Shown here piece by piece: positions 12,945 to 34,857 of a stretch of 34,857 nt of DNA. This DNA comes from an uncultured Pelagibacteraceae bacterium (GTDB lineage: Bacteria > Pseudomonadota > Alphaproteobacteria > Pelagibacterales > Pelagibacteraceae): the NCBI GenBank assembly GCA_902567785.1, contig CACFOR010000007.1, positions 1 to 34,857 on the forward strand, read 5' to 3'. Within the stretch, counting starts at the first letter, position 1. The number at the start of each line of letters is the position of its first letter. A program made the translations under genes and the position numbers. Below the pieces are notes generated by a model. The model did no database searches, was not told where the DNA came from, and was given only the letters and a program-made list of their open reading frames with translations.

Positions 12945-13346
12945 ATGGATAACAAATCTAAAAAAATAGTAACACAAATATCAGCTGGTGAATTGTTAGA
13001 TAAAATAAGCATTTTAGAAATTAAATTAGATAAAATTAAAAATAAAGCCAGTTTAGAAGAAATTAATAAAGAATATAAATTGTTAAAAGAAGTCGAAAAT
13101 TCAAATATAGAAGTAACGGAAGAAATTAAAAAACTTTATGAAGAAATAAGAAAGGTAAATCTTGCTCTTTGGGATATTGAAGATAAAATTAGAATTTGTG
13201 AAAAAGATAAAGATTTTGGTAAAAAATTTATAGAACTAGCTCGTGCTGTATATTCCACTAACGATAAAAGATCTGAAATTAAGTCTAAAATTAATGAAAC
13301 GTTAGGTTCAAATATTAAAGAAATAAAGCAATACGTCGACTATTAG
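12945..13346 (+). CDS. DUF6165 family protein (copy 1)
   Basis: A 133-residue, charged, mostly helical cytoplasmic protein with no signal or membrane segment. Recognisable parts are SAGELLDKISILEIKLDKI at the N-terminus, a central NLALWDIEDKIR, and a C-terminal ARAVYSTNDKRSEIKSKIN...SNIKEIKQY. I recognise it as DUF6165, which has no known function. A clear paralog lies at 30707-31087, and both copies have a GT9-like gene nearby. The 3' end overlaps the convergent permease gene by 4 nt. Confidence 0.8.
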   Translation: MDNKSKKIVTQISAGELLDKISILEIKLDKIKNKASLEEINKEYKLLKEVENSNIEVTEEIKKLYEEIRKVNLALWDIEDKIRICEKDKDFGKKFIELARAVYSTNDKRSEIKSKINETLGSNIKEIKQYVDY

Positions 13347-21403: not shown

Positions 21404-21931
21404 ATGGATTTAAAAAAATATATACGATCAATTCCTGATTATCCTAAAAAGGGAATTTTATTTAGGGATATAACTACTTTAATTAAAGACAAAAATGCAT
21501 TTAAAAATTGTATTGATCAAATGTCAAAAATAATGACTAAATTAAATTATGATAAAATAGCAGCTATCGAGTCTAGAGGATTTATTTTTGCATCGCCTCT
21601 TTCTTATAATTTATCAAAATCTTATATTTTGCTGAGAAAAAAAGATAAGCTACCTGCAGAAAGGTATTCTGTAGATTTTGAGCTTGAATATGGAAGCGCA
21701 ACTTTAGAAATTCACAAAGACTCTATCGGTCAGAAAGAAAAGGTTGTCATAATAGACGATTTAATCGCAACCGGAGGTACAGCAGAAGCTGCTGCTAAAC
21801 TTGTTGAAAAATCTGGAGGTGTGGTTGCTGGATTTATTTTTGTAATAAATCTTTTTGATTTGGGAGGTAAAGAACTTCTTGAAAAGAAAGGATACAAAAG
21901 TTTTTCTTTAATGGATTTCCCTGGACATTAG
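21404..21931 (+). CDS. apt: Adenine phosphoribosyltransferase
   Basis: A 175-residue type I phosphoribosyltransferase that converts adenine plus PRPP to AMP. It shows IPDYPKKGILFRDITTLIKD (adenine-binding and APT-specific start), IAAIESRGFIFASPLSYNL, LLRKKDKLPAERYSVDFELEYGSATLEIH, and the PRPP loop VVIIDDLIATGGTAEAAAKL. It diverges from mtnP, and the pair forms an adenine-salvage module with the spermidine synthase nearby. The stop overlaps the convergent GT2 gene by 4 nt. This is the last core metabolic gene before the polysaccharide island. Confidence 0.97.
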   Translation: MDLKKYIRSIPDYPKKGILFRDITTLIKDKNAFKNCIDQMSKIMTKLNYDKIAAIESRGFIFASPLSYNLSKSYILLRKKDKLPAERYSVDFELEYGSATLEIHKDSIGQKEKVVIIDDLIATGGTAEAAAKLVEKSGGVVAGFIFVINLFDLGGKELLEKKGYKSFSLMDFPGH

Positions 21932-22800
21932 TCTTCAAGATTTGGTCTATACCATGAAGTTTTTCCAGATAAAGAATTATAAAAACCTGATGCTCTATTG
22001 AAATATATTTTTTTCTTAAAATCATTTTTTGTCAGAGAATAAAATAAAAATTTAAACACAGCTGAGATATATGTTGGCAAATTTTCCTTAATTGCTTTTA
22101 AATAACCATAATGCTTTTTATTAAAATAAAATTTTGACCAAACCCAATGCCAATTTCTTGATAATTCTATTTCTTTCTTAAATTTTTCATCTATAGTTTT
22201 TGCACCCAAATGTTTTATTTTTGATTTTGGAATAACAAATATAGATCCCCCATCTTTTTTTACTCTTAAACATAAATCATTATTTTCTAGATACAAAAAA
22301 AAATTTTCATCGAAATATATATCATTTTTAAATTTTCTTTTATCGATAAGCATTGCAAATCCATCTACATAATCGACTTTAAGAGGAGTTTGATTTATCT
22401 CAGGTTTGCTCTTATTGAACATTCCATAATTTGGAAAATCAGGGTTTGATGAAATTGGTGATATAATAGAAAAATCAGAAATTTTTTTTGAACCTAAATA
22501 AAGTTCATTCAATGTATCAGACTCCAACTGAACGTCTGGGTTAATTATTAATACATAATCTGTTTTTGCAAATTTTATACCAATATTATTTCCTGCTCCC
22601 ATTCCTAGATTTGACATTGATAAAATACATTTTAAATTTGGGTATTTAGATTCCAGTTCATTTTTAAATTTTTTGTTATTCGAATTTTCAACAACAATTA
22701 CAGGTATGCTTTTATCAATAGATTTTATGCATTCATCTATCACTTTTTCACTTTTTATGGTCACGATAACTATTGATAAATTTTGCCTAGATATTGACAT
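21928..22800 (-). CDS. Glycosyltransferase family 2, rhamnosyltransferase-like
   Basis: A 290-residue GT-A glycosyltransferase. The N-terminal nucleotide-binding part reads LSIVIVTIKSEKVIDECIKSI and VIVVENSNN; MSNLGMGAGNNIGIKFA precedes the metal-site IINPDVQLE; FFLYLENNDLCLRVKKDGG holds the acidic ED-type catalytic region. This layout is typical of WbbL/RfbF-like rhamnosyltransferases. It diverges from rmlB across 70 bp, so dTDP-rhamnose (or a related dTDP-deoxysugar) is a likely donor. It has a long Lys- and aromatic-rich C-terminal tail, perhaps for membrane attachment. Confidence 0.88.
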   Translation of the reverse strand: MSISRQNLSIVIVTIKSEKVIDECIKSIDKSIPVIVVENSNNKKFKNELESKYPNLKCILSMSNLGMGAGNNIGIKFAKTDYVLIINPDVQLESDTLNELYLGSKKISDFSIISPISSNPDFPNYGMFNKSKPEINQTPLKVDYVDGFAMLIDKRKFKNDIYFDENFFLYLENNDLCLRVKKDGGSIFVIPKSKIKHLGAKTIDEKFKKEIELSRNWHWVWSKFYFNKKHYGYLKAIKENLPTYISAVFKFLFYSLTKNDFKKKIYFNRASGFYNSLSGKTSWYRPNLED

Positions 22801-22870
22801 AGTGTAATGAATACTGACGTTTTAGATTAAGAAGTATACTAATAGTTTTTACTAATGTAAAAAACAAAAT

Positions 22871-23887
22871 ATGAAAAAAATTATAGTAACTGGTGGAGCA
22901 GGATTCATTGGGAGTAATCTAATCAAACATTTGCTTAAAAAAAAATACTTTGTAATTAATATTGATAAGCTTAGCTATTCAGCGAATCCTTATAATCTAA
23001 AAGCTCTAAAAGGAAACAAGAATTATATTTTTTTTAAATCTGATTTAAATAATAGAAAAAAAATCACTAATATATTAAAAAAATATAAACCAGAAGGTAT
23101 ATTTAACTTAGCTGCAGAAACACATGTTGATAGATCAATAGACGAGCCAAAAAATTTTATTTTGAGCAATATTCTAGGAACATATAGTTTATTAGAATCT
23201 GTTTTAAAATTTAATAAAAAAATAAAAATTGTTCATGTTTCAACTGATGAAGTTTATGGTGATATAATTAAAGGAAGATCTAGTGAAAATTACCCTTATA
23301 GTCCTAGCTCACCTTATTCGTCTTCAAAAGCAAGCGCAGATCATCTAATCAAAGCATACATCAGAACATACAAAATGAACGCCGTTATATCAAATTGTTG
23401 TAATAATTATGGACCCAACCAATTTCCTGAAAAACTTATTCCAAAATTAATTTTCAATATTATTAATAACAAACCTTTGCCTATTTATGCTAAGGGAAAA
23501 AACTCTAGAGAATGGATGCATGTAAAAGATCATTGTGATGCTCTACTTTTAATCTATTTAAAGGGTAAATCTGGAGAAAGTTATAATATTGGATCTGGAA
23601 AGAATTTTATGAATAAAGACATTGCAACTAAATTAATTAGAATAGCAAAAAATAAATCCTTAAAACTAGGTAAAAAAGTAAAAATTAATTTTGTTAAAGA
23701 TAGACCTGGTCATGATTTTAGATATGCTTTAAATAGTAAAAAAATTCAGAAAAAATTAGGATGGAAAGCAAAGATATCTCTTCAAACAGGTTTGTTGCAA
23801 ACTTTTAATTGGTATTTAAATAATAAAAATTTTTTTAATAGTGTTTCAAAAAAATATTATATAAATAGACTTGGTTTAACTAAATGA
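22871..23887 (+). CDS. rfbB: dTDP-glucose 4,6-dehydratase
   Basis: A 338-residue extended SDR that dehydrates dTDP-glucose to dTDP-4-keto-6-deoxyglucose. It has the NAD motif VTGGAGFIGSNLI, NLAAETHVDRSID, the STDEVYGDI catalytic Thr-Asp-Glu, YSSSKASAD with catalytic Tyr-x3-Lys, RTYKMNAVISNCCNNYGPNQFPEKLIP, and REWMHVKDHCDAL. It is the first gene of a four-gene B-A-D-C set and overlaps rmlA by 4 nt (ATGA). The DNA here is visibly more AT-rich than the core genes, with long poly-A runs. Confidence 0.96.
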   Translation: MKKIIVTGGAGFIGSNLIKHLLKKKYFVINIDKLSYSANPYNLKALKGNKNYIFFKSDLNNRKKITNILKKYKPEGIFNLAAETHVDRSIDEPKNFILSNILGTYSLLESVLKFNKKIKIVHVSTDEVYGDIIKGRSSENYPYSPSSPYSSSKASADHLIKAYIRTYKMNAVISNCCNNYGPNQFPEKLIPKLIFNIINNKPLPIYAKGKNSREWMHVKDHCDALLLIYLKGKSGESYNIGSGKNFMNKDIATKLIRIAKNKSLKLGKKVKINFVKDRPGHDFRYALNSKKIQKKLGWKAKISLQTGLLQTFNWYLNNKNFFNSVSKKYYINRLGLTK

Positions 23888-24756
23888 TAAAAAAAGGAAT
23901 TATTTTAGCTGGTGGTTTGGGTACAAGAATGAGCCCTCTTACTAAAGCCGTAAATAAACATTTGCTACCTATTTATGATAAACCCGTATTTTTTTACCCT
24001 TTGTCTGTTTTAATGTTATCTGGAATAAAGGATATCTTAATCATTGTAAACAAAGGTCAGCTAAGTCAATTTAAAAAAATACTACCTAATGGAAATAATC
24101 TTGGTATCAAAATTACATATGCAGAACAAAAAAATCCAAAAGGCTTGCCTGATGCTTTTTTGATTGGTGAAAAATTTATAAATAAAGATAATGTAGCTTT
24201 AATTTTGGGAGATAATTTTTTTTATGCACAAAGCTTAACAAAAAAATTAAAAGAATGCGTCAAACTTCATAAGGGTGCTACTGTAATACTTCATCCGGTA
24301 AGGAATCCTTCCTCTTACGGGATAGCTAGTATTAATAAAAAGAATAAAATAAGAAAAATTGTTGAAAAACCAAAAAAAAGTTTTTCAAATCTTGCAGTAA
24401 CAGGTTTATATTTTTTTGATAACAAGGTAATAAACTACAGTAAAAAATTAAAGCCTTCAAAAAGAAATGAGTTAGAAATTATTGACTTATTAAAAAAATA
24501 TAAAAATAATAATAAGTTAACAGCTCAATTTTTGGGTCGAGGAGGAGCTTGGCTGGATACAGGATCTATCAATGATTTTTATGATACATCAGCATTTGTT
24601 TCAGCTTTAGAAAATAGACAAGGTCTAAAAATTGCTTGCCTAGAAGAAATAGCCTTAAATAATGGATGGATTAATAAAAAAAACATAGAAACAGCAATTA
24701 AATTTTATGGTAAATGCAGCTATTCACAATATTTGTCTACTCTAATAAAGAAATAA
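23884..24756 (+). CDS. rfbA: Glucose-1-phosphate thymidylyltransferase
   Basis: A 290-residue nucleotidyltransferase making dTDP-glucose from glucose-1-phosphate and dTTP. The signature is GIILAGGLGTRMSPLTKAVNKHLLPIYDKP, with LILGDNFFYAQ (metal Asp), HPVRNPSSYGIASIN, VEKPKKSFSNLAVTGLYFFDN and GRGGAWLDTGSINDFYDTSAFV. The length matches RmlA. It takes the glucose-1-phosphate that the mutase at 3803-5257 could provide. It overlaps rfbB by 4 nt and is followed after 9 bp by the RmlD-like gene. Confidence 0.96.
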   Translation: MIKKGIILAGGLGTRMSPLTKAVNKHLLPIYDKPVFFYPLSVLMLSGIKDILIIVNKGQLSQFKKILPNGNNLGIKITYAEQKNPKGLPDAFLIGEKFINKDNVALILGDNFFYAQSLTKKLKECVKLHKGATVILHPVRNPSSYGIASINKKNKIRKIVEKPKKSFSNLAVTGLYFFDNKVINYSKKLKPSKRNELEIIDLLKKYKNNNKLTAQFLGRGGAWLDTGSINDFYDTSAFVSALENRQGLKIACLEEIALNNGWINKKNIETAIKFYGKCSYSQYLSTLIKK

Positions 24757-24765
24757 TTGAAGTAA

Positions 24766-25482
24766 ATGATTAAAAAAAACAAAATTGTAGTTACCGGTGG
24801 ATCAGGAAGATTTGCACAAAGTTTAAAGAAAATTAAAAATAAATATAATTTTATTTATCCAAGTAAAAAAAAACTAAATATAACAAAAATAAAAAGCATT
24901 ATAAATTTTTTAAAAAAAACAAAACCAAAGTCAGTTTTGCATCTTGCTGGTTTATCTAGACCAATGATCATTCATGAAAAAAAAATTAATAAAAGTATTG
25001 ATTTAAATATAATTGGTACATCAAACTTAGTTAAGGCATGCTCAAAGCTAAAAATAAAATTAATATATTTTTCAACTAGCTATGTTTATCCAGGAAGGAA
25101 AGGAAATTACAAAGAATCTGACCCGGTGTTTCCGTGGAACAATTATGCCTGGTCGAAACTCGGAGGTGAATGTGCGGTTCAAATGTATAAAAATTCACTA
25201 ATTCTCAGAGTTTGTATGACTGAAAAACCTTTTATTCACAAAAAAGCTTTTGCAAATGTTAAGTTGAATTTTATTTTTCATGATGAGTTAGCAAAAATTT
25301 TAATGAAAATTCTTCATAGAAAAGGAATTATTAATATTGGGGGTCAAACTAAAACTGTTTATAACTTTGCTAAAAAATACAATCCCAAAGTAAAAAAAAT
25401 ATTTAATAATAATAAAAAAATAAATGCATTTCCTATGAATCCTTATATGAACTTATCAAAACTAAATAAAATGATAAAATAG
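24766..25482 (+). CDS. dTDP-4-dehydrorhamnose reductase-like sugar-nucleotide SDR (short)
   Basis: A 238-residue SDR with the Rossmann start IVVTGGSGRFAQSL, LNITK and VLHLAGLSRP (strand-4 region), FSTSYVYPGRKGNYKESDPVFPWNNYAWSKLGGE with the catalytic Thr/Ser, Tyr and Lys (YAWSK), and LILRVCMTEKPF. Position between rmlA and rmlC implies the RmlD step, NADPH reduction of the 4-keto sugar. It is shorter than usual RmlD (~290-300), with a reduced C-terminal substrate domain. The product could therefore be dTDP-L-rhamnose or another 6-deoxyhexose such as 6-deoxy-talose. Confidence 0.75.
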   Translation: MIKKNKIVVTGGSGRFAQSLKKIKNKYNFIYPSKKKLNITKIKSIINFLKKTKPKSVLHLAGLSRPMIIHEKKINKSIDLNIIGTSNLVKACSKLKIKLIYFSTSYVYPGRKGNYKESDPVFPWNNYAWSKLGGECAVQMYKNSLILRVCMTEKPFIHKKAFANVKLNFIFHDELAKILMKILHRKGIINIGGQTKTVYNFAKKYNPKVKKIFNNNKKINAFPMNPYMNLSKLNKMIK

Positions 25483-25485
25483 TCT

Positions 25486-26022
25486 ATGAAAATAGTCGAT
25501 ACTAATATTAAAGGTTTAAAAGTTATTATCCAGAAAAAACATGGTGATCCAAGAGGTTACTTGAGAGAAACCTACAGAAAAAAAATAATTAAATGGAATA
25601 ATTTAATTTTTGATTACGCTACCACGTCAAAAAAAAACGTTCTCCGAGGTTTTCATTTTCAAACTAAATTTAAACAAGCAAAATTTGTGAGTGTTCTAAA
25701 AGGAAAAATTTTAGATTGTGTAATAGATCTTAGAAAAAACTCAAAAACATTTGGTAAAAGCTTTTGCATTGAACTATCTGAAAAAAATTGTAAATCTTTA
25801 TACATTCCCGAAGGTTTTGCCCATGCTTACTATAGCTTTTCTAATTTAAATATAATTTATTATAAATTATCAAATTATTATTACCCTAAATATGAGGATG
25901 GAATTATATGGAAAGATATTTCTGTTAAAAAAAAATGGCCAACCAAAAGACCGATTGTATCAAAAAAGGATCAAAAATTAAGAACTTTAAATAACTTTAT
26001 AAAAATATTTAAAGGACTCTAA
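25486..26022 (+). CDS. rfbC: dTDP-4-dehydrorhamnose 3,5-epimerase
   Basis: A 178-residue cupin-fold epimerase. It has GDPRGYLRETYRKK, TSKKNVLRGFHFQTKFKQAKFVSVLKGKILDCVIDLRKNSKTFGK with the catalytic His in RGFHFQ, IPEGFAHAYYSFSNLNIIYYKLSNYY and DGIIWKD. It acts between RfbB and the RmlD-like reductase to set the L-configuration. It lies 3 bp after the reductase and its 3' end overlaps the convergent DUF4422 gene by 4 nt, closing the plus-strand set. Confidence 0.94.
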   Translation: MKIVDTNIKGLKVIIQKKHGDPRGYLRETYRKKIIKWNNLIFDYATTSKKNVLRGFHFQTKFKQAKFVSVLKGKILDCVIDLRKNSKTFGKSFCIELSEKNCKSLYIPEGFAHAYYSFSNLNIIYYKLSNYYYPKYEDGIIWKDISVKKKWPTKRPIVSKKDQKLRTLNNFIKIFKGL

Positions 26023-26840
26023 CTTAAGTCTTTTCTTATATCGTGAAAAATTATTGGCATAATTGTGCTTTTTGTATTTTTTTTAAACCAATAAGGCATA
26101 AATCTTTCAGCAAGAAAAGTATATATTCTTATTTTTCCAAAACCTTTTAAATTTTCGAAACCAAATAATTTTTCACATTTTTCCAACCAAGGAAAAAGAT
26201 CATCATAATATTCTTTTAACTTATTTTTGGATTTGCAAATAAACATATTATGAGGGCTAAATGATACCTCTTTATTGACAAATTTTTTAAAGTCATCTTT
26301 GTTTTTATCATCTAATAAATTTATTGCATTTAGTAAATTATTCTCTCCATGCATTAAATCAAAATGAAAATTTATATTCCTTTTTTTTTTACTTAATATT
26401 AATGCTGGATTTTTCATGATAATCCTTGATCCCTTTTTAATAAATTTCATTGCTTTAAAATTATTAGTATAAATAGGTACACCTAATATAGAATCATATT
26501 CTTCATAATTTTTTGGTACATCTTTTAAAACTTGTGATGGCAAGCTTTCTATGTTTATGTTTTTTATATCATGATCTTTAATACTCCAAAATTTTCTATA
26601 CTGACAAAATCCTATCCAACCATCGTCTAATTTATCTAGATAATTTTTCCATATCCAATAATGAAATGTATATTCACCATAATTTTTGTTTTTTTTAGAA
26701 ATATTTTTTCCGGATTTATCTGAAAACCATTCTTTATTAAAGGAATTGTCTCCTAGACCAACTGGTAAATATCCTAAATTTCTTATAAATCCATAATGAT
26801 TTGGATCCAAAGTTATACAAAACATCGTTAATTTTCTCAT
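26019..26840 (-). CDS. DUF4422-like glycan-biosynthesis protein
   Basis: A 273-residue soluble protein with YGEYTFHYWIWKNYLDKLDDGWIGFCQYRKFW, resembling the DUF4422 core (HYWxWKN...IGxxxYRRY) found in capsule and LPS clusters and thought to be a glycosyltransferase. SPHNMFICKSK and ERFMPYWFKKN near the C-terminus also fit. Catalysis is unproven. It is the last gene of the minus-strand GT39-GT61-DUF4422 group, 2 bp after the GT61 gene. The coding strand carries an A10 run (plus-strand T10 at 26381-26390). Confidence 0.65.
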   Translation of the reverse strand: MRKLTMFCITLDPNHYGFIRNLGYLPVGLGDNSFNKEWFSDKSGKNISKKNKNYGEYTFHYWIWKNYLDKLDDGWIGFCQYRKFWSIKDHDIKNINIESLPSQVLKDVPKNYEEYDSILGVPIYTNNFKAMKFIKKGSRIIMKNPALILSKKKRNINFHFDLMHGENNLLNAINLLDDKNKDDFKKFVNKEVSFSPHNMFICKSKNKLKEYYDDLFPWLEKCEKLFGFENLKGFGKIRIYTFLAERFMPYWFKKNTKSTIMPIIFHDIRKDLS

Positions 26841-26842
26841 TT

Positions 26843-27964
26843 TTAGCTCTCTATCTTTTTTATTAATTCTTTAATTGGTATTTGGTGACTTCCTTGTTGA
26901 TTTGGAAAATCAATTTTATATATCTGTTTAGAATCTACAATTATTGGATCGTAATTTAAATTATTTTTTTTAGAAATATTTTTTATTGAATCGCCTGAAG
27001 TTGGACTTCTTAATTCTACAACTTTTGTACCAGGTTTACAAAAAACTAAATTTGCAAATCCTGCTCCATGTAAACCTACTACACATTTTGCATTATAAAA
27101 CAAATTTACCTGTTCTTTAAAACTTATATTGTGTAGTTTTACGGGAGTAAAATTATTTTTCACCAATTCTTTTTTGACATCATCTTCGTTAGCTATTGTT
27201 CTTTGAGGTTTTTTATTTGTTTCTATGCTTCTGTCTATATAAATTTTATTTTCTCCTTGTTTTTCAGTAACTATATTTGGTTTTATAAAACTATCCCTTA
27301 ACCACTTTGCTATCCAAGCAGGTTGATTATTATTATCGACCGAAGCATTTCCGCTAACAACGACTGGATGATCAGTTACTATTAAATCTTTAGTTGTTAT
27401 ATGTCTGAATTTTTCACTCGATAACCTTTTGCTTTGAGGAATATTTAAATAATTTAGAGTTTCAATTTGAAACTTCTTGGATAAATTGGGAAGTAAAAAA
27501 AAATCTACGTCATTTAATTTAATTGTTTTGCTGCACAAAAATAGTCTGGGTAATACATCAAATAACCAATGCCAATAACTTTCGTTTCCTCCTCCACCCG
27601 TTAATAAAGACAATGTGATTCCATTCAGTTTTTTTATCTTTCTTGGTGTACCTTTTTCAAAAACTATATTATCGTTTGCTTGTGAGTTATACATTTGGGA
27701 ATCTTTAAAATATCTGTGTTGAAAAGATGGGCCTTCAATTATTTTTTTATCAAGTATAACGGCAGTATCATGAATACGATCAGTATATAATCTTCCATCA
27801 ATAATTTTATATACTTTATATTTTAAAATTTTTTCTACATCTATCGTATTAATTTTAATTCTATTATCATTATCAGCTTGAATTATACCTTCTATTTTAC
27901 CATGTATTTTTAAAAAGACAGAATAAGATATATTTTTAAATATTTTTTGTAATAATTTTCTCAT
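26843..27964 (-). CDS. Glycosyltransferase family 61 protein
   Basis: A 373-residue GT61 (DUF563) protein: SYWHWLFDVLPRLFLCSK, KIYIDRSIETNKKPQRTIANEDDV, and the C-terminal VGLHGAGFANLVFCKPGTKVVELRSP, which holds the family's HGA motif. Bacterial members transfer pentoses or other sugars in O-antigen or capsule assembly. Its ATG overlaps the GT39-like stop by 4 nt, and DUF4422 follows after 2 bp, so the three act as one unit. The N-terminal ~60 residues are not conserved to my eye. Confidence 0.88.
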   Translation of the reverse strand: MRKLLQKIFKNISYSVFLKIHGKIEGIIQADNDNRIKINTIDVEKILKYKVYKIIDGRLYTDRIHDTAVILDKKIIEGPSFQHRYFKDSQMYNSQANDNIVFEKGTPRKIKKLNGITLSLLTGGGGNESYWHWLFDVLPRLFLCSKTIKLNDVDFFLLPNLSKKFQIETLNYLNIPQSKRLSSEKFRHITTKDLIVTDHPVVVSGNASVDNNNQPAWIAKWLRDSFIKPNIVTEKQGENKIYIDRSIETNKKPQRTIANEDDVKKELVKNNFTPVKLHNISFKEQVNLFYNAKCVVGLHGAGFANLVFCKPGTKVVELRSPTSGDSIKNISKKNNLNYDPIIVDSKQIYKIDFPNQQGSHQIPIKELIKKIES

Positions 27965-29541
27965 ATATTTTTTCTTCTAATAAGCGAAAGATTTAAACCC
28001 ATTCTTTCTACTGAAGATATAGTTGTGCCAGTAAACTCCTCGTAACAAGTTTTAAAATCATCTTTATTTGGATCTACATAAACTCTATTTGTCATCATTA
28101 TATAATCATAATTATCTTCTAAAGGTACGATTGTTATATTTTTAAATTTATATTTTTTTAAAACATATTTTATGTGACCTTTACCCAAGCCGCAAAGTGC
28201 TATTTTTTTATGCTTATCTTTTTCAAATTGTGTTTTTTTAAGTAACTCTATGATAGAAGTTGAAAAATAATCACTTTCAAATTTTTTATCTGTTTCAGAA
28301 AATTTTCCACTAAAAGAATTTAAATATGTATACTGGTATGGGGTTAATGAAAAAAAATTGTATAAAGAATATATAAATAATATAGATAATAAAACCGACA
28401 AAATCTTATTTATTTTATACTTCATATTTTCTAATAAATAAAAAATTATGATTCCGGGTAATATACTTAGATATGGGATTAAATATAAAAATAGTCTTAA
28501 ATTATCATAAATAGAATAGGGAGAAACTAGCAAAATTAAATTTGGAAAAGTTATAATAAAAATTATCAAAAGTATTTTATAATAAAAATTATTAAATACT
28601 TCTTTAAAATAAATTGATTTAGCTGTTGAAATTATTAAAAATAAAAAATAACTTAAAATTAAATACTCTGGCAATTTGTAAAAAAGAAAAATTAAAATGT
28701 AGTTTGCTGGTGGATTTGCTGTGTCAAAAACTACCCCATTAATCAGTCCTTTGGGAACGCCAAATGAAAAATTAAAGCTTTCATAAAAAAACTGAAAAGG
28801 CAATATAAGTATGTTTGGATATACCTCTGGCCAACAAATTATTAAAATAACATATGCAATAAATATTGATATTAGAATATCTTTTATAAACCTGTTTATT
28901 AATATTTTTTTTTTACATATTTTTCTTTGATAAAAAGAATCAATTAATAAAAAAATAAAAATTGGAATTATTGTAACAAAAAAAGAAACTCTAACACTTA
29001 AACCCAAGCCAAATAATAAACCTATAAAAATTACAAATCTTTTTTTTTTGTTTTCAAGATGATGATATTTAAAGTACTTTATTAAGGAATAACTCATCCA
29101 AACATTACAAAAAGCCCAGATTATATCTCTAGTACTAATTGCCATATGACCAAAAAAAATAGGGTTAAAAAAACTAATAATAAAAACAATGTAACCGATT
29201 TTTTTATTAAAAAGTTCTCTTGCTATTTTCGAAACCCCAAAAATTGTACTGATACCAATAAATGTATTTAATATATGTAAAGTTTCTATTTCAAAATTTT
29301 TTGGAAATAATTGCGTAATAAACATTACAACAACTGAATATGTTCCTGGATATAGTCTGATATAAAAACTAAACGGATCTGATTGGTAATCCTGTAATCC
29401 TAATGAAAAAAAATACTTTAAACGTAATTTACCCATTTGAATTGTTGTACTTTCATCCCAACCAATTCCAATAATAATTGCTGAATATAGAGAGAATAAA
29501 ACTAATGAGTATAAAAAAACGTTAATGTAAATTTTTTTCAT
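27961..29541 (-). CDS. GT39/ArnT-like integral membrane glycosyltransferase
   Basis: A 526-residue GT-C type protein with around a dozen hydrophobic segments. The first periplasmic loop contains GWDES (Asp29-Glu30), the acidic pair that is catalytic in ArnT/PMT enzymes, followed by FYIRLYPGTYSVV. The DE motif, ISTRDIIWAF and the topology suggest transfer of a sugar from a polyprenyl-phosphate donor on the periplasmic side. The C-terminal ~130 residues (after residue ~400) are mostly soluble. Hydrophobicity explains several T10 runs in the plus-strand sequence (28905-28914, 29040-29049). Confidence 0.78.
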   Translation of the reverse strand: MKKIYINVFLYSLVLFSLYSAIIIGIGWDESTTIQMGKLRLKYFFSLGLQDYQSDPFSFYIRLYPGTYSVVVMFITQLFPKNFEIETLHILNTFIGISTIFGVSKIARELFNKKIGYIVFIISFFNPIFFGHMAISTRDIIWAFCNVWMSYSLIKYFKYHHLENKKKRFVIFIGLLFGLGLSVRVSFFVTIIPIFIFLLIDSFYQRKICKKKILINRFIKDILISIFIAYVILIICWPEVYPNILILPFQFFYESFNFSFGVPKGLINGVVFDTANPPANYILIFLFYKLPEYLILSYFLFLIISTAKSIYFKEVFNNFYYKILLIIFIITFPNLILLVSPYSIYDNLRLFLYLIPYLSILPGIIIFYLLENMKYKINKILSVLLSILFIYSLYNFFSLTPYQYTYLNSFSGKFSETDKKFESDYFSTSIIELLKKTQFEKDKHKKIALCGLGKGHIKYVLKKYKFKNITIVPLEDNYDYIMMTNRVYVDPNKDDFKTCYEEFTGTTISSVERMGLNLSLIRRKNI

Positions 29542-29561
29542 TTCAAACTTTGAGCAATATT

Positions 29562-29888
29562 TTAAAGTTTGCTTTTATCTATTTCTTTAAATTCTTCCTT
29601 AATTTTTAAATATAATTTAAATAAAAGTATTTTATCTTGCTCGCTAATCAAATTTTCCTGTTCTAAACTTTTTTCTAATTCCAATCTTATTTTATCTCTA
29701 ATTTCAAATCTTGTATCTCTGTCTCCAACACCTAGAATTTTATCAATGCTTTCTAACCTATCAGATAAAATCATATTAAATATAAAATTAATTATAAGTA
29801 TGATTGCAATTGATATTGAAAATAACTTTATAAAAAAAAATTTTAAACTACTATTAGATGGGTTTCTATTTTGGTTTTTATTATCCAT
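29562..29888 (-). CDS. Small membrane protein of unknown function
   Basis: A 108-residue protein: a polar N-terminus (MDNKNQNRNPSNSS), a hydrophobic helix at ~18-44, then a charged helical region rich in Glu, Lys and Asp (SLEQENLISEQDKILLFKLYLK). I recognise no family. The opposite strand is also open over nearly the same span, but the polar/hydrophobic/charged order of this frame and its place 20 bp before the GT39-like gene favour it. It may be an accessory subunit of that enzyme, which is inference. Confidence 0.55.
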   Translation of the reverse strand: MDNKNQNRNPSNSSLKFFFIKLFSISIAIILIINFIFNMILSDRLESIDKILGVGDRDTRFEIRDKIRLELEKSLEQENLISEQDKILLFKLYLKIKEEFKEIDKSKL

Positions 29889-29908
29889 TTAAATTCTTTT
29901 TTAAAGTA

Positions 29909-29922
29909 AGTTATATATAACT
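29909..29922. repeat. 14-bp perfect palindrome
   Basis: AGTTATATATAACT is a perfect inverted repeat between the tRNA gene and the small membrane-protein gene. It could be an operator or part of a weak terminator, but it contains only two G/C pairs and AT-rich DNA makes such palindromes easily. Confidence 0.3.
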
Positions 29923-29963
29923 AGCAATTAAAATGAAATGAATATTTAGTTTTAGTCTTTATT

Positions 29964-30040
29964 TGGTAGCGGGAGTCAGAGTCGAACTGACGACCTCCGG
30001 CTTATGAGTCCGGCGCTCTAACCAACTGAGCTATCCCGCC
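29964..30040 (-). tRNA. tRNA-Met (anticodon CAU)
   Basis: Minus-strand cloverleaf of 77 nt with an encoded CCA. Acceptor arms are GGCGGGA and UCCCGCU (G1-U72 wobble), D-arm GCUC...GAGC, anticodon loop CUCAUAA, T-loop UUCGACU closed by GUCAG/CUGAC. The anticodon stem CCGGA/GCCGG has an A31-G39 mismatch. G1-U72 rather than C1-A72 argues against the initiator. CAU could also be tRNA-Ile2, read as lysidine after TilS modification; elongator Met is my preference. It sits inside the polysaccharide gene region. Confidence 0.92.
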
Positions 30041-30056
30041 TTTTAATTTATGTTGA

Positions 30057-30084
30057 TATATAATACTTTTTATTAATGAAGCAA
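30057..30084 (-). promoter_or_regulatory. Candidate promoter of the tRNA gene
   Basis: On the minus strand, TTGCTT (30084-30079) and TATATA (30062-30057) are separated by 16 bp, and the mature tRNA begins 16 nt further on, a suitable distance for a sigma-70 type start. AT-richness makes false matches common. Confidence 0.4.
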
Positions 30085-30102
30085 TCAATAATTTTACTTA
30101 TC

Positions 30103-30540
30103 TTACTTTTTAATTTTTATCTTTCCTTCATCAACCTCATTGAATTTAGTTTTATCAAGCAAAGGATTAAAAGGACCTTGTTTAATTTCTATAAGTGAAC
30201 ATTTTTTTAATACTTTAAAACCATGTGAACCTTCAATGATAATAGCAATACTATTTTTTTTTAATATTTTGCTGAATAAGTATTTTTTATTATTTGTATA
30301 AAAGTCAATTCTTAAAACCCCTTTTTTAACAAAAAGCACTTCGGCTGTTTTGTTTATTTTTCTTAAATAATTTCTATGAGTATGTGGTTTTATAATATGA
30401 TTTTGCGCATGATTCATGAAGCCCAATTGTATAGAAAAAAAATCAGGCGTAATAAAATTTATACCACCTTTTTTTTCATATTTTTTTTCATTCAAAATTA
30501 TTGCTAATATTTTTTTTTTATAAACTATTTTTTCAACCAT
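30103..30540 (-). CDS. Cupin-fold protein, glycan-cluster type
   Basis: A 145-residue protein with a cupin-like pattern: NHIIKPHTHRNYLRKINKTAEVLFVKKGVLRIDFY (His-x-His, a later Glu, then Gly) and a second motif around EGSHGFKVLKK, enough for a metal-binding jelly roll. Similar proteins occur beside sugar-nucleotide and methyltransferase genes, sometimes as sugar isomerases or carbohydrate-binding proteins; the role here is unknown. It stands alone, 62 bp from the tRNA and 166 bp from the divergent DUF6165 gene. A plus-strand T10 run (30510-30519) lies close to its start. Confidence 0.6.
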   Translation of the reverse strand: MVEKIVYKKKILAIILNEKKYEKKGGINFITPDFFSIQLGFMNHAQNHIIKPHTHRNYLRKINKTAEVLFVKKGVLRIDFYTNNKKYLFSKILKKNSIAIIIEGSHGFKVLKKCSLIEIKQGPFNPLLDKTKFNEVDEGKIKIKK

Positions 30541-30706
30541 AAATTTAAACCATTTTCATATCAAAATAACTCAATATTTATTATCAACTTTTTTATCTTT
30601 TCGACATAAATAGATACTAATACATTAATTATCAGGAAGTTAAAATTAAGTAAATTTAAATTAAGTAGACTTAAAGGCATTTTTTTTGGTATTAAAGTAA
30701 ATAAAA
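30541..30706. other. Divergent intergenic region
   Basis: This 166-bp spacer between the cupin and DUF6165 genes should carry both promoters. Two copies of AAATTAAGTA (30643-30652, 30658-30667) are 15 bp apart, and TTAAAGG lies ~30 bp before the DUF6165 ATG. No clear hairpin, promoter pair or RNA is visible. Confidence 0.35.
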
Positions 30707-31087
30707 ATGAAAAAAATCTATACAGAAACTTCAGTGGGTGAAATAATTGATAAAATCACAATTTTGGAAATTAAAAAAAAAAGAATTTCTGATAAAAAAA
30801 GTCTCTCTCAAATCAACAAAGAATATTCAGTACTTAAAAGTACGATTAGAAAAAATATAAAAATTAACACAAAATTAAGGAAATTGTGGAAAAATTTAAA
30901 AGATACAAATCTTAAAATATGGGAAATGGAAGATCAAAAAAGATATACTCAAAAATATTTAGAAAGTCTTTCGAAATTAGCAAAGGACGTTTATAAATTT
31001 AACGACCAGAGGGCAAATATAAAATCAAAAATAAATAAAATTACCAAATCAAACTTGAGAGAAATAAAAAGGTACGCTAAATATTAG
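30707..31087 (+). CDS. DUF6165 family protein (copy 2)
   Basis: A 126-residue, Lys-rich helical protein, clearly paralogous to the product of 12945-13346: both share VGEIIDKITILEIK-type starts, NLKIWEMEDQKR in the middle and YKFNDQRANIKSKIN...SNLREIKRY at the end. Copy 2 is richer in Lys and Arg, matching the AT-rich island it lies in. Function is unknown. A TIGR04325-like methyltransferase gene starts 4 bp after its stop, so the two are probably cotranscribed. Confidence 0.8.
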   Translation: MKKIYTETSVGEIIDKITILEIKKKRISDKKSLSQINKEYSVLKSTIRKNIKINTKLRKLWKNLKDTNLKIWEMEDQKRYTQKYLESLSKLAKDVYKFNDQRANIKSKINKITKSNLREIKRYAKY

Positions 31088-31091
31088 TTTA

Positions 31092-31832
31092 ATGAAAATT
31101 AAACTTTTTAAATTTTTAGAAAAAAATCATACTTCTGAATATGGGAAAAAATTTTTTTCTTTTGGTGCAGCAAAAACTCATTCGGACAAGATTAGTACTT
31201 ATTTTGATAAAAGATTCACAGCATTTGAGGGACCAAATAAAGTTGAACTATCAGATAGATTTTATGTTGCATCTATTTTGGCAACATTAGTAAATAAAAA
31301 AAAACCAAATATTTTGGATATAGGTGGCGGTCCTAATCCAATCTACAGTTATATCAAAAAGTCTACAAATATCACCACAAAATGTTTTGTTTTGGATACA
31401 AGCAAGTTGGTAAAGATAATTAAAAATAAAATACCAAAAAAATTTAAAACAGATATTAAATATATCGTCTCGTTAAATGAAATTAAATTAAAATATTTAG
31501 ATATAGTCTATTTCAATAGCTCCTTGCAGTACTTAGAAAATTATGAACTAATAATTAAAAAAGTAAGCAAATATAAACCTAGATATATTCTTGTCAGTTA
31601 CACTCCATTACACTTTGAAAATAAAAACTACTATTCAGTGCAGTATGGTATACCTGGTAGTACACATCCTATAATTTTTTTTTCTGTAAAAAAATTAAAA
31701 AAACTATTATCAGTCTATAATTATAAATCTATATATGAAAATAAATATATAAATAATAATCAAAAATATACATCTCTAGGATCAAGTAATTTTTTCTATG
31801 GTGATATTTTATTCAGAAAGCGTGGCAATTAA
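31092..31832 (+). CDS. SAM-dependent methyltransferase, TIGR04325-like
   Basis: A 246-residue class I methyltransferase. The SAM-binding motif I is ILDIGGGPNPIYSYI, with VLDTSKL as the acidic strand-2 residue, DIVYFNSSLQYLENYELI (strand 4/5) and ILVSYTPLHFENKNYYSVQYGIPGSTHPIIFFS, which resembles the TIGR04325 putative-methyltransferase family of LPS/O-antigen loci. The acceptor is probably a sugar or lipid-linked glycan; this is inferred. It follows the DUF6165 gene by 4 bp and converges on the GT9-like gene with a 3-bp gap. Confidence 0.75.
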   Translation: MKIKLFKFLEKNHTSEYGKKFFSFGAAKTHSDKISTYFDKRFTAFEGPNKVELSDRFYVASILATLVNKKKPNILDIGGGPNPIYSYIKKSTNITTKCFVLDTSKLVKIIKNKIPKKFKTDIKYIVSLNEIKLKYLDIVYFNSSLQYLENYELIIKKVSKYKPRYILVSYTPLHFENKNYYSVQYGIPGSTHPIIFFSVKKLKKLLSVYNYKSIYENKYINNNQKYTSLGSSNFFYGDILFRKRGN

Positions 31833-31835
31833 AAA

Positions 31836-32771
31836 TTAATTGCTGTTATATAAGATTTTAAAAAATTTTTCGAAGTGAACTTGGTAGTAAAAATCATATG
31901 CACTCTTCCCATGCACTTGTCTGGCTGGGAAATGTGGACAAGCTTCTAAAAGTCTTGGGACTTTTAGTCCTTCAGCAATATCTATACCTAAGGATGAATT
32001 TCCAACAAAAAGCTTGCTCGATTTAACTATCATTGCCATTTCTAAAAAATCTTTACAGTCATAAAATTCTAAATTATTAATTTCTTTTTTTAAATCTTCG
32101 TACTCATCTCTTGTGCCTATATATAAAAGATCTTTATAATTTTCTAAAAAATTATAATTTATAAACTGATTTCTATACCGAGGTGACCTGAGAATTGTAA
32201 TTTTGTTATTAATTTTACCATGCGGCTGAACATTTAAATACGGTTCATCTATATTCGGTTGTATACCTGCTATTTGAAAACCATATCTTAAATTGTCAAA
32301 AAGTAAATTAATTGGAAGTTCTCTTATGATATCGAAATTTATATCAATATGGTTTTTATTATATACTTCAACTTTGCTAATATATTTTTGTGATCTTAAT
32401 AAAGGTGACAACATATTAAAGATTTTTTCATTTATAAAAACATTTCCACCCTGGTGTCGGTGATGTTGTGCATTGAGTGGTTTATCAACTCCTATATAAA
32501 AATTACATTTATGTGTTTTTGACAATTCTTTTATTACAGGTAAAACATTAATAATATCTCCAATATGTCCGGAATGAAGAAAAGATAATTCTTTTTTTTT
32601 ATTAATTACGTTTTGTATTTCGTTAATATAATTTTCGTATTTTGTTTTAAAAATTTTAGAACTTTTATTAATACTCTCTATACTTTTGTATTGCTGGTAG
32701 TTTTCTTTATTTGTAAATTTATACCAATATCTTTTAAAAAGATTACGTAAAGTTTTTTTATCTACTTGCAT
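31836..32771 (-). CDS. GT9-like glycosyltransferase (heptosyltransferase-type)
   Basis: A 311-residue GT-B-like protein with a ~55-residue Lys/Tyr-rich N-terminal extension, then LSFLHSGHIGDIINVLPVIKELSK, the GT9-type acceptor-side loop, and a C-terminal SKLFVGNSSLGIDIAEGLKVPRLLEA in place of the usual ANDTGPAHIA, so the D-T-G-P-A-H motif is altered (GNSSLGIDIAE). It may use a different donor or be a divergent family branch. It is transcribed alone on the minus strand, convergent with the methyltransferase gene. Confidence 0.72.
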   Translation of the reverse strand: MQVDKKTLRNLFKRYWYKFTNKENYQQYKSIESINKSSKIFKTKYENYINEIQNVINKKKELSFLHSGHIGDIINVLPVIKELSKTHKCNFYIGVDKPLNAQHHRHQGGNVFINEKIFNMLSPLLRSQKYISKVEVYNKNHIDINFDIIRELPINLLFDNLRYGFQIAGIQPNIDEPYLNVQPHGKINNKITILRSPRYRNQFINYNFLENYKDLLYIGTRDEYEDLKKEINNLEFYDCKDFLEMAMIVKSSKLFVGNSSLGIDIAEGLKVPRLLEACPHFPARQVHGKSAYDFYYQVHFEKFFKILYNSN

Positions 32772-32898
32772 TTTTAAAGCACCTTACAATATTTTTTATT
32801 TTCTATACAATAAAAGTATTATCTAAAAGCACCAAAAGTTATCTTATAGTTAACTTAAAGGGCGACTGATAGTCATATACTCCATTTTTCATATCTGG
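32772..32898. other. Spacer between GT9-like and FkbM genes
   Basis: This 127-bp gap on the minus-strand run contains no open frame of note. AAAGCACC appears twice (near 32777 and 32827) and GACTGATAGTC near 32863 could form a 4-bp hairpin. I see no convincing terminator or promoter. Confidence 0.35.
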
Positions 32899-33687
32899 TT
32901 AATTTTTTTCATCAAAATACAATTTTACGTCTTCAGCTCTTTTTGCATTTGGAGAATCTAAACCAGAAATTGGATAATTTTTATTATTAACTTCACTAAA
33001 ATTTTTAAGAAGTTTTGTATGACAAAATGTCATTTCCAAAGTAAGAGGGTATCTTTCGTTATCTATAGCAAGATTATTTCCATGTATATGTATTAATTTA
33101 TAATTTGTACAACTTTTTATAAATTCTTTAACATCGTTTAACTTATTTTTTAAGTCATGAAATTCAATAGCAAAACCATTTATATGGTCAGGATATTTTT
33201 TCAATTCATTCAATATTTCGTATTCTGATCCCTCTATATCTATTTTACAAAAAATATTTTTTTTTTCTATATGTTTTTTTATAATCGCATCAAATGAAAT
33301 ACTTTTATGATTATTAATTCCTACCCTCTTTAAATGAAAATTAACATTTTTTTTTTTAAAAAAAATTAAAAAATCTAAATATTTAAACATATCAACTAAT
33401 CTTTTTGGCTTAAAAATTTTTAGAGATATAAATTTAATAAAGTCTTTTTTAAATCGATTTAACCAAAATTCACTATTTATTGAATCGTCATACGCCTCGA
33501 TTGAACAATTAGTTAATTTATATAGATGCTTCTCAAATTCCCAATTATCTGAAATACCCAAGCTGATCAGTAAATCCAAATCTTTAAGCAAATTTTTTGA
33601 CAATATATATCCACCATCATTTAAAGAGCCTATTCTAATCAAATTAGCATTGTCTAAATAAATTGGTTTAAAAATTTTGGGCAACAT
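32899..33687 (-). CDS. FkbM family methyltransferase
   Basis: A 262-residue protein whose central IFCKIDIEGSEYEILNELKKY is the FkbM methyltransferase signature (DIEGSE), followed by INGFAIEFHDLKN. The N-terminal DGGYILSKNLLKDLDLLISLGISDNWEFEKHL is the SAM-binding region. Such enzymes O-methylate sugars in surface glycans. The coding strand has runs of A10 and A11 (plus-strand T10 at 33257-33266 and T11 at 33347-33357). The upstream neighbour on the same strand, 29 bp away, is a second FkbM-type gene, so they probably share a transcript. Confidence 0.8.
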   Translation of the reverse strand: MLPKIFKPIYLDNANLIRIGSLNDGGYILSKNLLKDLDLLISLGISDNWEFEKHLYKLTNCSIEAYDDSINSEFWLNRFKKDFIKFISLKIFKPKRLVDMFKYLDFLIFFKKKNVNFHLKRVGINNHKSISFDAIIKKHIEKKNIFCKIDIEGSEYEILNELKKYPDHINGFAIEFHDLKNKLNDVKEFIKSCTNYKLIHIHGNNLAIDNERYPLTLEMTFCHTKLLKNFSEVNNKNYPISGLDSPNAKRAEDVKLYFDEKN

Positions 33688-33716
33688 AATTAAATATAGT
33701 TTTTTCTAGCAATCAT

Positions 33717-34592
33717 TTACAGATTTTCAAACTTAAAATTTTTCATTTCTTTTTTTATTATTTCAGACTGTTCTTCAGTTAAAAATCTATTTGCAAATTT
33801 CCAACTTTTAATTGGTGACAAAATTTCAAATTTATTTGAAAATTCTTTTTTAACATAAAAAGCATTTGTTCCAGAGCTATCTACCGCAATAAGGTCAAAA
33901 CCTTTTGAGTTTAAAAGCTCTGTTAAACTAAGGAGCGATGCACCGAAAAAACCATTATTATTAAATTTATGATGAGGGTTGTAGGGTATTGTTTTTTTCT
34001 CATCTTTATCTAGCCACTTATTATATTCACAACAAATAACATTAATTTTTTTAAGATCTAAATCTTTTAAGACCCAGTAGTCATTACCATCTATATCTAA
34101 TGAGAAGAAATCAATAATTTTTCCGTCTGTATTTGAATAAACTATATCATTTACATTTTCTTTATTAACACCTTTTGCTAAAATTTTTGCGTTTGTATTT
34201 GGAAAATAATGTTTTAGTAAACTTTTTAAAGCGAAACATTCGTCCTGATTAAAATCTATTAATTTGCCATTCCAATTATTCTTTATTAAATTAAGACTAT
34301 TAAATTCATATAAATCAAATCCGATTTCTACAAAAAATTTATTATTAGGAATTTTTTTAAATATATGCTCAATTATTCCATCTTCATTGTTCTGTGAAGT
34401 AATTTTATACTCAAATTCATTAATTTTATCTAAATTACTAGAAAATTTAGCATATGATTTTTCTTTATTTATTTCTTTTTTAAATTTTCTAAACGTTCTT
34501 AAAAAAAGAACTTTTGAATAAATATTTTCTGATAAATACTTTTTGGTAAAATTTAATATAAATCTAGTGAATATTTTTTTTGATCTTTTCAT
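33717..34592 (-). CDS. FkbM-like methyltransferase
   Basis: A 291-residue protein: a basic N-terminal ~60 residues, then ITSQNNEDGIIEHIFKKIPNNKFFVEIGFDLYEFNSLNLI (SAM-binding strand VEIG), FSLDIDGNDYWVLKDLDL corresponding to the FkbM D-I-E/D-G-N motif, and FGASLLSLTELLNSKGFDLIAVDSSGTNAFYVKK near the end. SQNNEDGIIEHIF is common in O-antigen-linked FkbM-type proteins. Substrate unknown. It precedes the FkbM gene at 32899-33687 by 29 bp and appears to lead that pair. Confidence 0.7.
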   Translation of the reverse strand: MKRSKKIFTRFILNFTKKYLSENIYSKVLFLRTFRKFKKEINKEKSYAKFSSNLDKINEFEYKITSQNNEDGIIEHIFKKIPNNKFFVEIGFDLYEFNSLNLIKNNWNGKLIDFNQDECFALKSLLKHYFPNTNAKILAKGVNKENVNDIVYSNTDGKIIDFFSLDIDGNDYWVLKDLDLKKINVICCEYNKWLDKDEKKTIPYNPHHKFNNNGFFGASLLSLTELLNSKGFDLIAVDSSGTNAFYVKKEFSNKFEILSPIKSWKFANRFLTEEQSEIIKKEMKNFKFENL

Positions 34593-34645
34593 TTGTAAAA
34601 TAATAATACCTTAATTATTCTTTATGAAGAAGCTTTATTATAATT

Positions 34646-34857
34646 TTAAAATAAACGAATACCCATTCTGATCGCAACAAAAAGGACTAGACAAGAAGTT
34701 AATAAAGCTAAAATTCTTGCAGGAAAAATTTTTAAATTTAAAAAATTTCCAAGTTGTCCACCAACTAAAACTACTGCAAATAAATACCAATAATTTAAAA
34801 CTTCTAACAAAACATAATTTTTGTTTAACTGTCCAAAAATACCAAAAATTGAATTAA
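34646..34857 (-). CDS. TauE/SafE-like permease, C-terminal part
   Basis: The minus strand is open from the window edge to a TAA at 34648-34646 and encodes 70 residues ending FAVVLVGGQLGNFLNLKIFPARILALLTSCLVLFVAIRMGIRLF. The GG-x-LG followed by a short polar link (LKIFPARI) and a last hydrophobic helix ending in GIRLF is the usual C-terminus of TauE/SafE (DUF81) permeases. The start lies beyond the right edge, so the gene is partial. The family is assigned from this tail only. Confidence 0.65.
   Translation of the reverse strand, partial: NSIFGIFGQLNKNYVLLEVLNYWYLFAVVLVGGQLGNFLNLKIFPARILALLTSCLVLFVAIRMGIRLF

Follow-up and report, generated by a model that had tools for sequence, protein, structure and literature searches.

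The stretch of DNA analysed here (hereafter the window) comprises 34,857 bp of contig G000:C7, from a source genome of 819,593 bp that is 63% complete and whose relatives are Pelagibacteraceae (SAR11). It carries two genes of the family DUF6165 (PF19662): copy 1, which is divergent to a gene of the glycosyltransferase family GT9, and copy 2, which is followed by a methyltransferase gene and by a gene for a protein with a GT9-like predicted fold. The five genes concerned are as follows:

30707–31087, plus strand: DUF6165 copy 2, 126 aa, acquired, predicted four-helix bundle; PF19662 31.5 bits (cut-off 27)
31092–31832, plus strand: TIGR04325-like methyltransferase; TIGR04325 68.7 bits (cut-off 80), Methyltransf_23 20 bits (cut-off 27)
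31836–32771, minus strand: GT9-fold glycosyltransferase-like protein; GNxS replaces DTGP, about 58 N-terminal residues form an additional helical part, predicted fold nearest GT9
12945–13346, plus strand: DUF6165 copy 1, resident at a conserved locus, 133 aa; PF19662 43.6 bits
11969–12907, minus strand: canonical GT9, divergent to copy 1 with a gap of 37 bp; PF01075 51.3 bits, keeps DTGPAH

An earlier sequence-only reading of the window had placed the three genes around copy 2 at these positions, and the open reading frame (ORF) coordinates and profile scores confirmed this. Both DUF6165 copies pass the PF19662 gathering cut-off of 27 bits and are therefore members of the family, sharing 45% identity over 128 columns. 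The methyltransferase start lies 4 bp (TTTA) past the copy 2 stop codon, exactly as that reading had described; the two genes probably share one transcript. The GT9-like ORF is convergent to the methyltransferase gene and lies 3 bp beyond its end. The methyltransferase matches TIGR04325 over 171 residues (E 4.1e-19) but at 68.7 bits misses the curated cut-off of 80, so that the earlier label "TIGR04325-like" is correct as a likeness and does not amount to family membership. Relatives of this methyltransferase were found in 3 other genomes of 60.

DUF6165 is closely tied to GT9 across the SAR11 family. PF19662 was present in 161 of 197 family genomes and in 70 of the 77 good ones, and copy 2 as the query gave a DUF6165 match in 163 of the 197. 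A total of 162 DUF6165 genes (160 fetched loci and the two of the window) were placed in the family, and a canonical GT9 was the divergent neighbour of 154 of them, at a gap of −81 to 64 bp (median 34, start calls being approximate). Both genes co-occurred in 162 of the 197 genomes, GT9 occurred without DUF6165 in eight and DUF6165 without GT9 in one, and neither was found in 26. The DTGP-x-H motif was invariant in 30 aligned members of the canonical GT9. In 14 genomes examined for ADP-heptose supply, all of which have the canonical GT9, neither GmhA (nothing above 25 bits in nine of them) nor RfaE domain I scored above the cut-off in any; the donor of the canonical SAR11 enzyme may not be ADP-heptose. 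At alphaproteobacterial loci outside the family, GT9 accounted for 8 of 30 immediate neighbours; these came from 16 of 27 loci, after near-duplicates, loci with a missed or overrun DUF6165 frame and two short neighbours had been dropped. Motifs of the GT9 type, among them variants like DTAIAHLA, were present in 8 of the 27 loci, or 10 when the GT9-profile hits in L486 and L508 are included. Caulobacter vibrioides is among the species with a DUF6165 protein.

Comparison with a second family, DUF4254 (PF14063), revealed an unusual relationship. Copy 1 scored 27.0 bits against PF14063, at its cut-off of 27, and copy 2 scored 23.6 bits, which falls short of membership. In both copies the early part of the profile matched the C-terminal half (residues 63–121 to profile positions 6–64, and 67–129 to 6–65), and the later part matched the N-terminal halves of other DUF6165 proteins (L454, residues 266–317 to 76–125; L509, residues 77–112 to 76–111). 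DUF6165 profiles that had been cut and rejoined at 26 points were compared with a set of eight DUF4254 proteins, two of them taken from Pseudomonadota genomes and one each from Burkholderia, Legionella, Phocaeicola, Prevotella, Bacteroides and Parabacteroides. For this set, six of seven plasmid records with DUF4254 were used, H4 (a second B. multivorans) being left out; widening the search to the class of G645 returned the same two of 48 genomes and added none, and a scan of viral contigs from one DUF4254 sequence gave no match. The native DUF6165 profile scored 7.7–13.9 bits, with single halves aligned at a time. In contrast, cuts at residues 46–66, around the loop between helices H2 and H3, gave one continuous alignment at 14.5–24.7 bits in all eight proteins, and the cut at residue 51 gave 14.7–24.7 bits, again in 8/8. 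With the cut-51 profile, none of 3,498 unrelated genes scored above 8.8 bits and none of 1,600 shuffles above 8.3 bits. With hhalign, the probability of the match between the two families rose from 23% (E 8.9e-4) in the native order to 92% (E 6e-7) after permutation. These profile comparisons indicate that DUF6165 and DUF4254 are related by circular permutation, as two versions of one family with homologous halves in opposite order. Such a rearrangement would be sterically natural, because an up-down four-helix bundle has both termini at the same end. DUF6165 was not mentioned in the literature searched, and no title listed for circular permutation together with heptosyltransferase terms bore on the subject; both searches covered neither subscription journals nor preprints.

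The link to GT9 extends to DUF4254, which is directly followed by GT9 in five of eight loci (L521, L523, L524, L525 and L526; gaps of −14 to +11 bp). PMC9425974, the one paper of the searched literature found to name DUF4254, gives it as linked to the ADP-heptose:lipopolysaccharide (LPS) heptosyltransferase RfaF in Flavobacteriales. On a Burkholderia multivorans plasmid, the gene L521:3896-5647 fuses DUF4254 to a GT2 domain and has GT9 genes on both sides.

DUF6165 also occurs in viral DNA, where an alignment-based scan recovered 522 relatives; a scan from the single sequence of copy 2 gave no match. The 79 viral loci were reduced to 37 representatives, and 31 of their 37 downstream and 32 of their 36 upstream neighbours were scanned, short or duplicate ones being left out. 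The viral genes sit in tight same-strand runs beside varied glycan genes, with GT9 making up four of the 31 downstream and four of the 32 upstream neighbours and with other glycosyltransferases upstream as well. No GT9 motif hit was found in 69 control viral windows. In one viral frame, L454:1-1158, the C-terminal part of a GT9 (22.3 bits, cut-off 22; SDTAIAHLAGALG) is joined to DUF6165 (33.4 bits), the 5′ end of the frame being lost at the contig end. Four further apparent DUF6165 fusions (L426, L501, L511 and L512) proved to be wrong-frame extensions in high-GC DNA, and only L454 stands. Among 50,697 phage records, DUF6165 was present in two, both of Synechococcus phage S-SRM01, where it is annotated as a hypothetical gene and has a 4-bp overlap with a glycosyltransferase gene. 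No match in PHROGs was obtained for the 10 proteins tried. Pelagimyophages are described in PMC7029224 as having many LPS-type glycosyltransferases.

The AlphaFold2 model of copy 2 is a four-helix bundle (helices 10–26, 30–50, 55–81 and 85–113) with a predicted local distance difference test score (pLDDT) of 90.7 and a predicted template modelling score (pTM) of 0.84. No fold match to it stands out, the best Foldseek E being 1.5 and the VIA Z of 7.4 lying at noise level for helical bundles. Likewise, the PDB yielded no convincing sequence relative; the best hit, a C-type lectin chain (E 0.00099), is taken as a coiled-coil composition effect. These negative searches do not exclude any structural relationship. 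Twelve residues (G11, E39, N68, E75, R79, N99, R102, K106, N110, S115, E119 and K121) are the same in all of 64 DUF6165 proteins of cellular and viral origin. Copy 2 keeps 24 of the 31 columns whose conservation reaches at least 97% among 155 other DUF6165 copies, and its seven changes are all conservative (L13I, L71I, E82Q, F84Y, F88L, R93K and I117L). Four of them, E82Q, F84Y, F88L and R93K, cluster around the connection between helices H3 and H4, together with a three-residue deletion private to copy 2. Six other accessory DUF6165 copies retain 29–31 of these 31 columns. Copy 2 thus shares the family profile and the common invariant residues, and it differs from typical members in its deletion, in the changes around residues 82–93 and in its position off the conserved GT9 site, lacking the canonical GT9 neighbour that 154 of the 162 family genes have.

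The origin of copy 2 was traced in two trees. A quick 162-row tree grouped it with five GT9-adjacent DUF6165 genes of genus g2 at a Shimodaira–Hasegawa-like approximate likelihood ratio test (SH-aLRT) value of 97. A careful tree of 50 rows, hand-chosen from the 162, recovered copy 2 and the same five genes as a six-row clade inside the DUF6165 family (support 100/98), with 55–61% identity between copy 2 and the five. Copy 1 in this tree is sister to the DUF6165 of a same-genus genome, G108 (99/97), and a forced sister pair of copies 1 and 2 was rejected by the approximately unbiased test (p-AU 0.00445). The sequence-only reading had called the two copies paralogs arisen by duplication; this was not borne out, and local duplication of DUF6165 is ruled out. 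The copy 2 branch is long (0.68–0.78 across the two trees), and at such a length (0.68 in the careful tree) its position within the g2 clade is approximate. Copy 2 was found in only one of the 197 genomes searched. Judged from these trees, copy 2 is a xenologue, transferred from a lineage in which it was an ordinary GT9-adjacent copy into a surface-glycan island. What was first described is real but was misread: it is island turnover, in which an acquired DUF6165 has come to lie beside unrelated glycan genes. Elsewhere in the family, one genome bin (G011) holds two GT9–DUF6165 pairs (L100 and L101), and the L101 copy closely resembles the one in G042, which points to contamination or a recent transfer.

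DTGPAH is the donor-site motif of GT9, with a role known from WaaC. The protein encoded at 31836–32771 carries GNSSLGIDIAE, as the sequence-only reading had noticed; that reading regarded the motif as altered. All 22 SAR11 members aligned, however, have G257 and N258, their consensus being of the GNxSxGxxIAE type, and N258, S260 and R150 are invariant between the SAR11 proteins and 26 viral relatives. The motif is hence normal for its own family, and a private alteration of the gene in the window is ruled out. The protein gave no PF01075 match at E≤1 (model cut-off 22 bits), which places it outside the GT9 family by profile. Its AlphaFold2 model (pLDDT 86.7, pTM 0.84) begins with about 58 residues of helices, mostly of low confidence. 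Foldseek gave 3tov (E 2.9e-5) and WaaC (E 3.6e-5) as the best matches, and a structure search gave 3tov at Z 17.1 (root-mean-square deviation 3.2, 233 residues), followed by WaaF (16.7) and WaaC (16.4). The six top VIA entries are all GT9 (Z 16.1–17.1), with a plant NDH-complex chain, 7wff, tying with the lowest of them at Z 16.1 and UDP-GlcNAc 2-epimerases next at 11.5.

Compared with GT9 heptosyltransferases (PF01075; WaaC, WaaF and TibC), the protein thus has a predicted GT-B fold closest to theirs, including a G71-D72 pair near the N-terminus of the GT-B domain that is invariant in 22 SAR11 homologues, but it has no PF01075 match, carries GNxS for DTGPAH and has extra N-terminal helices. 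An hhalign comparison of its family with the canonical SAR11 GT9 aligned 52 columns only, at a probability of 15.6%, and a PDB sequence search with the family returned nothing useful. The protein probably works in the manner of a GT9, but as it lacks both the model score and the DTGP motif it is called GT9-fold here and not GT9. Since the donor-site motif is replaced by GNxS, its donor is probably not ADP-heptose.

Homologues of this protein were found in 30 of the 197 family genomes including that of the window, that is, in 29 others, and distant relatives in 73 viral contigs (L332–L404). Two viral relatives tested had no match in PHROGs, and one of them had none in Pfam either; the protein was absent from the 50,697 phage records searched. 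In a tree of 29 rows, which omitted one fragment below 150 aa and included some proteins only from a later start codon onward, the window's protein is sister to that of G154 from genus g4 (98/92), and not to that of any g2 genome. Judging by these trees, copy 2 and the GT9-like protein have different nearest lineages and did not co-diverge, which is the outcome that the sequence-only reading had itself named as refuting its proposal.

Among the 29 other genomes with a GT9-like gene, an accessory DUF6165 one gene away from it was seen only in G079 and G176, and the copies of these two genomes form their own clade (99/98). By inspection, a cassette common to both (L099 and L208) contains the GT9-like homologue and genes named as aminotransferase-like, DUF6165, methyltransferase-like, aminotransferase-like and dehydratase/epimerase-like. 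On the viral side, a DUF6165/DUF4254-like gene was found in 3 of the 73 loci (L400, L401 and L404), where it adjoins or overlaps the GT9-like relative; the DUF6165 profile matches L401 and L404 only weakly (E 0.00045 and 0.00068), and L401, the one of these two that was scanned with DUF4254, exceeds the cut-off of that model (35.7 bits). The ORF L401:3453-3707, of 84 aa, matches the first half of DUF4254 only (35.7 bits) and overlaps the GT9-like gene; it is perhaps a half-length DUF4254 module.

Copy 2 lies in a region of different composition, the further features of which are:

21928–34857, no strand: surface-glycan island holding copy 2, boundaries approximate; drop in GC and matches to GT61, PMT_2, cupin and FkbM
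30103–30540, minus strand: WbuC-like cupin, next to copy 2 and divergent to it; TIGR04366 26.6 bits (cut-off 42)
29964–30040, minus strand: tRNA-Met(CAT); found with ARAGORN, Rfam RF00005 68.4 bits

From about 22 kb onward the GC content is mostly 0.21–0.27, compared with about 0.28–0.35 across most of the left part. The island genes scanned are of glycan type, namely GT61, PMT_2, the WbuC-like cupin (below its cut-off) and FkbM methyltransferases, one above the Pfam cut-off and a second just below it. The tRNA-Met(CAT) gene is flanked by a 108-aa ORF and by the cupin gene, lies about 0.7 kb from copy 2, and is a possible integration or recombination site. PMC4053759 describes hypervariable regions of SAR11 with surface-glycan genes and recently acquired glycosyltransferases, which the present island resembles in its glycan genes and low GC. 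In the same source, hypervariable region 2 (HVR2) has rRNA genes at its flanks, whereas an Rfam scan found no rRNA gene in the window; the island is therefore not named HVR2.

Combined, we consider it somewhat probable that DUF6165 and DUF4254 are four-helix-bundle accessory proteins of GT-B glycosyltransferases, above all GT9, in the synthesis of LPS or other surface glycans, and that copy 2 is a transferred and slightly remodelled member. This proposal starts from the family assignment, predicted fold, linkage, permutation, transfer and one fused gene described above. From them we infer a physical binding, an accessory role and a transferase that copy 2 might serve. The bundle would bind a GT9-type enzyme as an accessory subunit, contributing to its stability, to membrane or acceptor positioning, or to the hand-over of the acceptor. 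The resident copy 1 would serve its divergently paired, conserved GT9. Copy 2 would have left a lineage in which it was resident, entered the glycan island and changed around the H3–H4 connection, and it would most likely serve some glycosyltransferase of the island.

Several observations weigh against this proposal. Binding to GT9 is suggested by linkage and one fusion frame, and copy 2 itself adjoins no recognised GT9. The co-occurrence counts largely follow from adjacency and incomplete genomes and are not independent of adjacency, and eight GT9-positive genomes have no detected DUF6165. In G073, G041, G135 and G095 (L112, L190, L193 and L198), the only DUF6165 found and the canonical GT9 lie on different contigs, which indicates that the two can separate with both retained. 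At 116 canonical loci, DUF6165 distances correlate equally with those of GT9 and of the next gene, a GT4-type glycosyltransferase by inspection (r = 0.731 each), and therefore co-inheritance of the cluster is enough to explain the pattern without a specific pair. The partial correlations were 0.247 for GT9 and 0.11 for the GT4-type neighbour; GT9-specific co-divergence at this locus was rejected, as there is no excess over the neighbouring glycosyltransferase gene. Most immediate viral neighbours are not GT9 but methyltransferases, sulfotransferases, an epimerase/aminotransferase group and other glycosyltransferases, and the classical GT9 motif lies within 2 kb in only 2 of the 37 dereplicated viral loci. 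Finally, no GT9 was found at three of the eight DUF4254 loci (L519, L520 and L522).

The breadth of these viral surroundings would also fit a DUF6165 that acts in the same glycan pathway as an enzyme in its own right, or by binding a ligand, and not as a subunit. The conserved set over the 64 sequences is mainly polar and appears to exceed the need of a pure scaffold, so that such invariant residues within the bundle could form a site. Given the GT9 fusion in L454, the strong GT9 bias at cellular loci and the lack of an outstanding solved enzyme fold in the Foldseek and VIA searches, we regard this as a minority possibility. A dedication of copy 2 to its GNxS neighbour, with the H3–H4 region remodelled to fit, seems unlikely to us. 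The two genes are one gene apart, the arrangement recurs in G079 and G176 as an independent event and beside or overlapping GT9-like relatives in L400, L401 and L404, and among seven accessory copies only copy 2 has lost several near-invariant residues. Nevertheless, the two genes lie on opposite strands with the methyltransferase gene in between, the trees conflict (g2 for copy 2, G154 for its neighbour), and a DUF6165 one gene away was seen in just 2 of the 29 other genomes, as was a DUF6165/DUF4254-like gene in 3 of 73 viral loci. Hence, of the tie to GT9 suspected by the sequence-only reading, the general link holds (154/162, DUF4254–GT9 in 5/8 and the frame L454), while the specialised pairing of copy 2 with the GT9-like gene is not supported by the trees.

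The losses in copy 2 could instead mark a non-functional passenger of island turnover that drifts before it is lost, as its long end branch (0.68–0.78), its private deletion, its seven changed near-invariant positions and its presence in just one genome of 197 would allow. An uninterrupted reading frame, the retention of 24 of 31 near-invariant columns, purely conservative changes, a confident fold model and the 4-bp spacing to the methyltransferase gene speak for a working protein, and we likewise hold this passenger scenario to be improbable. An extension of the accessory-protein proposal is more speculative still, and we give it little credence: DUF6165 and DUF4254 would be one permuted superfamily of obligate non-catalytic subunits of GT9-type enzymes in Pseudomonadota, Bacteroidota and phages, acquired copies would be orthogonal subunits exchanged by horizontal transfer and phage that re-target surface-glycan assembly, and copy 2 would have been refitted to its GNxS neighbour.

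The circular permutation indicated here would unite two families of unknown function and tie both to GT9, turning "function unknown" into a testable statement, namely a GT9 partner. In addition, glycan islands of SAR11 and 73 viral contigs encode a family that has the GT9 fold but lacks the usual donor motif, and the Pfam GT9 model misses the members tried. DUF4254 or DUF6165 of Bacteroides or Caulobacter, taken together with the respective GT9, would offer a tractable system for these abundant, hard-to-culture ocean bacteria.

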